NCBI GenBank assembly: GCA_020052615.1
Contig: JAGVOT010000017.1
Coordinates: forward strand, 62,001-126,000
Length of the DNA stretch: 64,000 nt
DNA from: Nitrospirota bacterium
GTDB taxonomy: Bacteria; Nitrospirota; UBA9217
Reading direction: 5' to 3'
Shown here: positions 46,952 through 48,598 of the stretch, one piece after another
Layout of the letters: every line of letters starts with the position of its first letter
Numbering within the stretch: the first letter of the stretch is position 1
The notes under the pieces: generated by a model
The model's input: only the letters and a program-made list of their open reading frames with translations
Told to the model about the DNA's origin: nothing
Databases searched by the model: none
Made by a program: the position numbers and the translations under genes

Positions 46952-47127
46952 TTGCCAAAGCTCGAATTTTAGTTCGTCCAAAGCCGCTGATTTTTGGTCA
47001 CTTAAGCTCCTAGTCCCACCATGGAGCTTCGTTCCTCAGGGTTGAACTGACTTATTCTAATCGCTCGCTCCTGGATTTACGATACAAAATCTGCCTTCAA
47101 TAGGCACAGCATAAGGAGGAAAGCTCT

Positions 47128-48540
47128 ATGTTGCGAAAATGCATCAGCACCTTTTCATTCGCAGCGGCACTGATGATCGGATCATTCGCCGGTCAGGCCG
47201 CGGCGCAGGAAAAGGCCGCAGCGCCGGCACAGCCGCCGACCAAGCCCTCAGTGGCCAAGGTCTGCGGGAACTGCCACCAGCCCCAACCCGGTAATCTCCG
47301 GGGAAATTTCGACAGCGTAGCGTACAAGACCAAATCGATCCAGGTCAAGATCGATGAGGCAACGGAGATACTGCGGTTCGACGACAATCTCAAGATCATG
47401 AACGTCCAGGCCCCGGCCGACAACCCGGACCAGCCGCTCTACGGCCTCAAGAAGGGCAAAGAGGTCCGCATCGAGTTCACGGAGAAGGACGGCAAGAAGT
47501 TCGCCACCCTTATATCGGCCAAGACGACCATCAAGGTCGCGCCCGAGAAGCAGGTCAAGACCGAGGACGTGGAGAAGCTCGTTGCCCAGGGACCGAAGAA
47601 GGGCAAGTATATGCTCATCGACGCCCGGCCGCTCCCCCGATTCCAGGAGGGATCCATCCCCACGGCCATCAACATCCCCTTCCCTGCTTTCGAAAAGATG
47701 AAGGACAAGCTTCCGGCCGATAAGGCATCGCTGATCGTCTACTACTGCGCAGGTGTTACCTGAGCGATGAGCCCTGACTCCGCCCGGCGGGCGGAAAAGC
47801 TTGGATACACCAATGTGAAGGTTTACGTGGACGGCACACCGGAGTGGGTGAAGCGCAACCACCTCGTGCTGTCAACGCAGTTCCTGAAGGAAGCATGGAT
47901 CGACAAGGATATCCCGCATGTGCTGGTGGATGTGCGGCCGGCAGCAGAATCTGAAAAGGGATTCATCAAGGGCGCTGTCACGGTCCCCGCTGCAGGGATC
48001 GAGAAGGCGATCGCCAGGTTCCCGCCCAAGGACAAGAAAGCGCCGATCATGATCTACGACCAGAAGGGCGGTGCTGACGCGGTGAAGGCTGCAAAAGCGC
48101 TCATTGCCGCAGGCTACGCTCCCGTGGACATCGTCTCCGGCGGTTTCGATGCGTGGAAGGCAGCGGGCTTCCCGGTCCAGACAGGCATGCTCGCAGAGAA
48201 CATCGTGTACGTGCCCAAGCCGCGGCCCGGTGAGATTGCCATCGAGGAGTTCGCCAAGATCGCCAAGGCAACGCCGCCGGACACGCTGATCCTCGATGTG
48301 CGGAACCGCGACGAAGGCAACGCCGGCATGATCAAAGGCGCGAAGCTGGTGCCCGACGAAGAGATCCTGGACCGGTTCGCCGAGATCCCGAAGGACAAGA
48401 AGATCGTGGCCCACTGCTCAACGGGAGTCCGCGCCGAGATGGCCTACCACAAGCTGAAGGAGAAGGGCTACACCGTCCAGTTCCTGAACGCCAAGGTGGA
48501 CATCAACGACAAGGGCGAGTTCAAGCTCGAAAAGCCGTAA
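47128..48540 (+). CDS. Selenocysteine-containing secreted triple-rhodanese protein (in-frame UGA at codon 212)
   Basis: From ATG 47128 (AAGGAGG upstream) the frame runs 211 codons to TGA 47761-47763, then continues in frame to 48540: 470 residues if UGA is read as Sec. Signal peptide to ~28; a c-haem-like motif CGNCH at 46-50; a small beta domain to ~140. Then come three rhodanese domains. Domain 1 has LIVYYCAGVT-Sec-AMSPDSARRAEKLGY: Cys207 and Sec212 match a C-x4-C pattern in homologues. Domain 2 (about 240-340) has YDQKGGADAV and no Cys. Domain 3 has active Cys430 in AHCSTGVRAE. The stop falls inside domain 1, so a truncated product would be non-functional. A terminator follows at 48565. 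Confidence 0.83.
47761..47795 (+). promoter_or_regulatory. SECIS-like element of the rhodanese gene
   Basis: After the UGA and 15 bases, TCCGCCC (47779-47785) pairs perfectly with GGGCGGA (47789-47795). With the last pair open the loop CGGCG begins 21 bases after the UGA, as in the two other genes. Confidence 0.7.
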
Positions 48541-48564
48541 GCTCAACCGCCGCGCCGACCAGAA

Positions 48565-48598
48565 AGCCCCGGAGGCATATCCTCCGGGGCTTTTTTTA
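48565..48598 (+). terminator. Rho-independent terminator of the rhodanese gene
   Basis: An 11-base stem AGCCCCGGAGG/CCTCCGGGGCT (48565-48575 with 48581-48591) with loop CATAT, then TTTTTTT. It lies 25 bases after the final stop, confirming that transcription is expected to reach the end of the read-through frame. Confidence 0.94.

Follow-up and report, generated by a model that had tools for sequence, protein, structure and literature searches.

The DNA analysed here (hereafter the window, a stretch of 64,000 nucleotides from a Nitrospirota bacterium) contains two apparent open reading frames, 47128-47763 and 47767-48540, and the question raised by this locus is whether they represent two genes, or a single gene in which a UGA codon is read as selenocysteine (Sec). 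An earlier note on the window had proposed one frame split by UGA at codon 212, and this was confirmed: the frame from 47128 to 48540 is interrupted once, by the TGA at 47761-47763, within the loop YYC-AGVT-[UGA]-AMSPDSA. Judged from sequence, the two apparent genes are a single gene for a predicted selenoprotein (Table 1), and the comparisons described below render its selenoprotein nature virtually certain. The description of the product as a triple rhodanese was likewise upheld, as PF00581 matches the window protein in three stretches (158.9 bits against a gathering cut-off of 22.2, E 5.2e-47). The standard code breaks such a gene into two open reading frames, whereby a residue of the active site is dropped.

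Table 1. Features of the predicted selenoprotein gene and its flanks (window positions)
Feature	Position	Strand	Basis
Predicted selenoprotein gene, very probably exported triple rhodanese, 470 aa, Sec at 212	47128..48540	+	frame reading, profile and homologue searches
Shine-Dalgarno-like AAGGAGG, 8 nt upstream of ATG 47128	47113..47119	+	read in sequence
Signal peptide, Sec type, likely cleavage AAA/QE	47128..47205	+	read by eye
CGNCH, a CxxCH haem-c-type motif, residues 46-50	47263..47277	+	motif count in homologues
Beta-rich domain, residues about 56-131, without Pfam match	47293..47520	+	AF2 model, Pfam scan
Rhodanese domain 1, bearing the C207-x4-U212 loop	47551..47862	+	Pfam, NCBIfam, AF2 model, BH2092 comparison
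C207 codon, place of the canonical rhodanese cysteine	47746..47748	+	sequence and homologue alignment
UGA codon 212, read as selenocysteine (predicted)	47761..47763	+	frame and homologue comparison
SECIS-type hairpin, 6 bp, 5-nt loop, 15 nt past the UGA	47779..47795	+	folding and covariation
Rhodanese domain 2, loop without cysteine in the window protein	47914..48165	+	Pfam and alignment
Rhodanese domain 3, canonical loop HCSTGVRAE (C430)	48271..48474	+	Pfam, NCBIfam, alignment
Intrinsic terminator, 13-bp inverted repeat (48563-48593) and T run	48563..48597	+	by reading; absent from consensus-scan list

A near-full-length homologue was found in 25 of 148 genomes, the genome of the window (G000) included, and 23 of these 25 are interrupted by one TGA, which is in frame and falls on the corresponding residue of the loop, the exceptions being L026 (YCVGGCSS) and L031 (YCRNNRW). 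The contigs of named genomes were also scanned, with 80 loci kept; the 10 long homologues among them comprised six with TGA and four with TGC or TGT, and the loops of the latter (YC-AGVT-C, YC-SGPT-C, YC-AGPT-C and YC-QGVT-C) hold their second cysteine at exactly the place of Sec. After the Geomonas family (48 genomes) had been searched as well, the homologues numbered 53; left out of this set were second copies in G026, G117 and G147, together with L045 and L046, two of the six with TGA, which are probably the same records as L010 (G002:C288) and L012 (G011:C174). These two Nitrospirae metagenome-assembled records are the nearest named ones to the window protein (L045 at 89%, L046 at 77% over the C-terminal part). 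The aligned site of the 53 homologues reads TGA in 37, cysteine in 13 (10 TGC and 3 TGT) and neither in 3, with TAA and TAG in none. UGA thereby occupies the site of a homologous cysteine, as is characteristic of selenoproteins, and both the C-x4-C loop that the earlier note had ascribed to homologues and the alignment at codon 212 that it put forward as a check are accounted for by this count. As far as sequences that share ancestry can tell, such a distribution at one site is not a matter of chance. The tree of these sequences requires at least three changes between Sec and Cys, the three rows with neither residue being uncounted and no shuffle control applied, and all pair and codon counts given here tally sequences rather than events. 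One member of the family, L170, is a partial match (114-467), and the alignments used were A1 (24 of 25 sequences, L025 being left out as it has an X), A2 (20) and A4 (33). In a collection of plasmids, 23 records matched, none of them over 80% of the query. Three homologues, L150, L153 and L162, show one further stop within the matched stretch, and more distant second long rhodanese copies with a TGA in the loop (SYCRGGTUGMS) were seen in two genomes (L204 in G026 and L205 in G117).

The same alignment bears on two readings in which the UGA is not decoded. Were it a genuine stop, with a second protein initiated at ATG 47767, the position of this ATG two codons past the UGA would be in keeping; that codon, however, is ATG in just 11 of the 37 Sec forms; in 24 of the others it is CTN or TTT, and 2 have TTG. 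Moreover, no ribosome site was seen ahead of ATG 47767, an independent one having been named in the earlier note as an observation that would speak for two proteins; the split would also sever a rhodanese domain within its loop, and the frame of the Cys forms L145, L146, L148 and L149 runs through without any stop there. A restart after the UGA, considered highly improbable, was rejected because the second codon beyond it is not conserved. Even less credence is given to a pseudogene or a sequencing error at codon 212, for which nothing but the stop speaks: an identical TGA is found in 37 homologues (from Nitrospirae, Geomonas and others), TAA or TAG is never seen at this place, and each of 23 examined Sec sequences has exactly one in-frame TGA. 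This reading was rejected on the ground that the TGA is shared by homologues. The Sec assignment can be made family-wide, including the named isolates Geomonas paludis and G. azotofigens.

A hairpin following the UGA, as the earlier note had described, was substantiated by covariation in 23 homologues and by the contrast with the Cys forms, while its energy in the window sequence on its own is not unusual (z -0.40). The hairpin analyses drew on those 23 of the 25 near-full-length sequences that have the UGA (20 of them in one step), and the stem is common to all: 97.8% of 138 cells are paired, versus 43-59% for slid versions, and RNAalifold recovers it unaided. Compensatory changes on both sides were observed at four of the six pairs; the most exchanged pair, which connects two third codon positions, is UA in 11 sequences, CG in 7 and UG in 5, and the stem of L032 is preserved as TTTACC/GGTAAA. 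Across the larger set, five or six of the six pairs can form in the 37 Sec forms, against one to five in the 13 Cys forms, and the mean minimum free energy of the stem is -11.2 versus -4.2 kcal/mol. A SECIS after the UGA is thereby indicated comparatively, its single-sequence energy being not significant, and the hairpin would serve as the element with which SelB and tRNA-Sec decode UGA 212 as Sec.

The machinery for such decoding was searched for in the same genomes. On contig C96 of G000, selA (612.8 bits) adjoins selB (384.4 bits), both over cut-off, and two tRNA-Sec genes with TCA anticodons were reported by ARAGORN (L043:3997-4091 on C130 and L042:250-348 on C50). The selD gene (L208, C59) also exceeds its cut-off and has a TGA in the active site CG-U-AAKIGP, whereby SelD of this genome is itself a predicted selenoprotein. 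Hence selA, selB, selC and selD are all present, as expected for a selenoprotein-producing organism. With the tRNA-Sec model, 5 of 14 control genomes also scored over the cut-off, and for this reason the tRNA-Sec point is carried by the ARAGORN anticodons. Over the genomes searched, matches above cut-off were obtained for selB in 27 of 30, tRNA-Sec in 29 of 30 and selA in 31 of 34; in G006, a Sec-form genome of 74% completeness, selA was without a match and nothing scored over the selB cut-off, though tRNA-Sec is present. As most Cys-form genomes also have selA, the machinery does not separate the Sec from the Cys forms. Taken together, all sequence tests that were run speak for an exported triple rhodanese with Sec at its codon 212. 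An exported double rhodanese of the loop type C-x4-C is followed, about 1 kb further downstream, by the tRNA-Sec gene on C130.

With regard to the location of the product, the signal peptide and the CGNCH motif were both recognised by eye, in line with the earlier note, and export is regarded as very likely; the route is probably the Sec translocon, the signal having no twin arginine on inspection. By way of CGNCH, this protein (exported as judged by eye) possesses the CxxCH motif of c-type cytochromes, its haem binding being putative, and among the 53 homologues CxxCH was counted in 42, CX4CH in 5 and neither in 6. Domain 2, lacking the loop cysteine in the window protein, is probably structural. 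The terminator that had been placed beyond the second half of the gene stands partly, in that an inverted repeat and a T run can be read there, while the consensus-scan list does not contain it. In the homologue of G004 (L014), a lipobox-like GC is found in place of the cleavage site of the window protein, and the domain 2 loop does contain a cysteine in certain homologues (L017 and L022 among them).

What, then, would Sec 212 do? The earlier note had located Sec in the first catalytic loop; the loop was correct, but the canonical catalytic cysteine is C207, and Sec replaces the second cysteine five residues on. C207 aligns with the canonical rhodanese cysteine and is retained in Sec and Cys forms alike. 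The C-x4-C loop also occurs in the solved rhodanese BH2092 and in the exported double rhodanese of G000 (YCNGVKCGKS). In the AlphaFold model (AF2, mean pLDDT 85), for which Cys was substituted for Sec in the input, the C207-U212 loop lies between the strand 202-206 and the helix 214-224, and a Foldseek search of the PDB did no more than confirm rhodanese folds. Given that C207 is canonical and conserved, that Sec replaces the second loop cysteine and that the loop of domain 3 is kept, it is proposed that a persulfide on C207 is resolved by Sec 212. Sulfane sulfur would be accepted by C207 of domain 1, the donor being thiosulfate, polysulfide or a comparable compound, and the resulting persulfide would then be attacked by Sec 212 to give a C207-S-Se-U212 bridge with release of sulfide, or alternatively the sulfur would be handed to C430 of domain 3. 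The bridge might be re-reduced by periplasmic electrons, supplied by the putative haem c of the protein itself and/or by multihaem cytochromes like those found beside some homologues. An exported Sec rhodanese of this kind, with a C207 persulfide resolved by Sec 212 and reduction by a periplasmic electron supply, is considered the likely identity of 47128-48540.

The role of Sec within it as a redox or resolving partner, and not as persulfide carrier, is favoured to a lesser extent. Alternatively, domain 1 could carry its sulfur primarily on Sec (Se-S), C207 only assisting, which would make the protein a faster sulfurtransferase and not a reductase: Sec and C207 share one loop, five residues apart, and a 2026 review (PMC13188914) catalogues the protein TsoB as UxxxxU, with Sec at both places. 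Nonetheless, the canonical cysteine position is that of C207, which is conserved in Sec and Cys forms, and the swapping of Sec and Cys at the second position resembles that of redox pairs, so the carrier role is deemed unlikely and the resolving role of Sec is retained here.

Sec rhodaneses as a kind are already catalogued in that review, which lists five forms, namely UxxS, UxxG, CxU, UxxG and UxxxxU (PMC13188914). With form 1 (UxxS, WP_010941598.1, PMC13188914), compared by motif, the window protein shares PF00581 and U-x-x-S, the latter (UAMS, 212-215) being situated in a PF00581 domain. The loop spacing is the same as that of TsoB (NF045694, form 5), a rhodanese/DsbD fusion-like protein whose residues 45-154 align to 142-245 of the window protein; the latter differs in its cysteine at the first position, and no DsbD part was found in it. 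Membership of TsoB was rejected on the score (76.4 bits against a cut-off of 805) and on that first cysteine. The rhodanese LYCAU (NF041203, form 3) similarly has Sec beside the catalytic cysteine, its motif being CxU as opposed to C-x4-U here, and was dismissed at 76.0 bits against a cut-off of 115. ExtH (NF040901), the rhodanese of the Geobacter selenite/tellurite operon, is also exported and of similar size, and in G184 a homologue of the window gene directly precedes extH; the ExtH of L186 scores 404.4 bits with this model, but the window protein is not listed at E<=0.01, and membership was rejected. The NCBIfam scan gave no model over its cut-off for the window protein, and among the papers listed by searches of open-access literature, none was seen on this exported three-domain family of Sec rhodaneses. 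The loop C-x4-U-x2-S is wider than the triple-rhodanese family, since single-domain rhodaneses (L003, L035 and L264-L268) carry it. L003 (G000 C131:74817-75158) is an exported single-domain C-x4-U rhodanese with IYCRGVGUTLS, similar ones being present in G001, G005, G129 and G112, and L268 (G004 C66) has FYCKGPKUTKS.

The gene neighbourhoods were examined for the possible partners of the rhodanese. In the window's own family, the gene is found beside opposite-strand genes that we take to be ffh, rpsP, rimM, trmD and rplS, and no multihaem or Mo gene lies within reach of it, for which reason the functional assignment rests on distant relatives. Neighbours were counted at 51 loci (36 Sec, 12 Cys and 3 neither), the loop pattern having passed over L128 (Sec), L140 (C-x3-C), and L207 and L192 (neither); haem frames were counted from stop to stop with TGA read through, and many flanks end at contig ends, so that the absence of a neighbour is weak evidence. 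Among the 12 Cys loci, 9 have a frame with at least three CxxCH no more than 8 kb away, and 7 have a PhsA-like Mo enzyme no more than 9 kb away; the corresponding numbers for the 36 Sec loci are 10 and 2, and the Mo enzyme is likewise near 1 of the 3 loci with neither residue. Three of the Mo enzymes were scanned, PhsA being the nearest NCBIfam model, under its cut-off. A PhsA search of G000 gave nine matches, none over this cut-off, which is a strict one (0 of 14 control genomes passed). An 8-haem cytochrome is directly downstream in all 4 loci of genus g35, which belongs to the same phylum as the window and is, by our guess, Thermodesulfovibrio; a homologous 9-haem protein occupies this place in 4 of 9 Geomonas-type loci. 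The two share 33% identity (E 5e-116), and the remaining copies were checked too. That a sulfur-handling Sec protein is exported, and that some relatives of it have multihaem cytochromes as neighbours, suggests that selenium would be used in periplasmic sulfur/selenium redox chemistry; a link to sulfur or selenium respiration in the periplasm is held to be evenly poised. The homologue L168/L192 of G181, a neighbour of Cys forms in the tree, no longer has either of the domain 1 loop residues (VFYGADSFSFE), yet Mo enzyme genes still adjoin it; to go by that loss, the C-x4-C/U loop is dispensable in this lineage. Two long Mo-enzyme-like frames of G000, L213 (C76) and L214 (C111), match the PhsA model weakly and have one TGA each in an open frame; they are possible further selenoproteins.

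The neighbourhoods also provide for a different task, in which selenite, tellurite or another chalcogen oxyanion would be reduced in the manner of the ext operon, the rhodanese being a selenium-handling partner. The ext genes form a selenite/tellurite operon of Geobacter (PMC5877670 and PMC6148476), and deletion of extI is reported to impair the reduction of both oxyanions (PMC6148476). A Cys-form homologue lies about 2.3 kb from extI in G184 and G187, and in G184 it immediately precedes extH, extI and extKL, which all score over cut-off (NF040901, NF040900 and NF040886). As against this, extI is near 2 of the 51 loci only, both of them Cys forms, and the ExtH model NF040901 does not pick up the window protein at E<=0.01. 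An oxyanion-reducing task is rated improbable, and the resolution of a C207 persulfide by Sec 212 is kept as the preferred reading. A different rhodanese-like protein is also reported for 10 of 18 extHIJKL regions (PMC6148476), and it may belong to the family of the window protein.

Last of all, the octahaem cytochrome that is the neighbour of the rhodanese in other genomes was newly found to have a TGA in place of a conserved cysteine. The G000 homologue (C43 10362-12125, minus strand) reads GPNN-[TGA]-GPSFAD, with the TGA at 8551-8553 of L216 (complement), where its relatives have GPHN-C-GPSFAD. This TGA is present in G147 and, within the window's family, from which 14 genomes were sampled, in 11 (G000-G004, G006-G008 and G010-G012); of the other three, G005 has TGT, the match in G009 ends before the site and G013 is without an octahaem match. 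A hairpin whose loop is GGTC (in G147 it is shifted and has GTC) is common to the 12 Sec octahaems; 90.5% of 84 cells are paired against 27-55% when slid, the fourth pair being broken in 4 of 12. Folding z values were -1.58 and -3.01 for two Sec copies, and +1.81 and +0.48 for two Cys copies (L256 and L261), which do not show the hairpin. The partner octahaem thus seems to be a second selenoprotein of the window's family, and constitutes an independent, checkable prediction.

Of the 25 genomes with a long rhodanese, 22 gave an octahaem match at E<=0.001 (any match being counted), as did 32 of the 123 in which it is missing (Fisher p 8e-9, ancestry ignored); in G008 and G012 the Sec octahaem is present but the long rhodanese is not. 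It is conceivable, though doubtful, that the exported C-x4-U rhodanese and the GPxN-[C/U]-G octahaem, both of which swap Sec and Cys, form one extracytoplasmic electron path by which sulfane sulfur (or selenium) bound to protein would be reduced, that is, a persulfide reductase fed by haem and not by NAD(P)H. The review also lists TIGR04315, a tetrathionate reductase family octahaem cytochrome selenoprotein (PMC13188914), which resembles the partner here in being an octahaem c-type cytochrome with Sec; this identity was rejected, as L216, L137 and L183 are not listed by the model at E<=0.1. A search of the PDB with the partner cytochrome gave no match at E<=0.01. Pfam assigned Cytochrome_C7 and Cytochrom_c3_2 to the octahaem, which in L137 and L183 displays a weakly NrfH-like N-terminus; a weak likeness to ExtN was also noted, all of these likenesses to NrfH and ExtN being under cut-off. 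Several genomes of the window's family also contain second, more distant octahaem copies, that of G010 having Cys.
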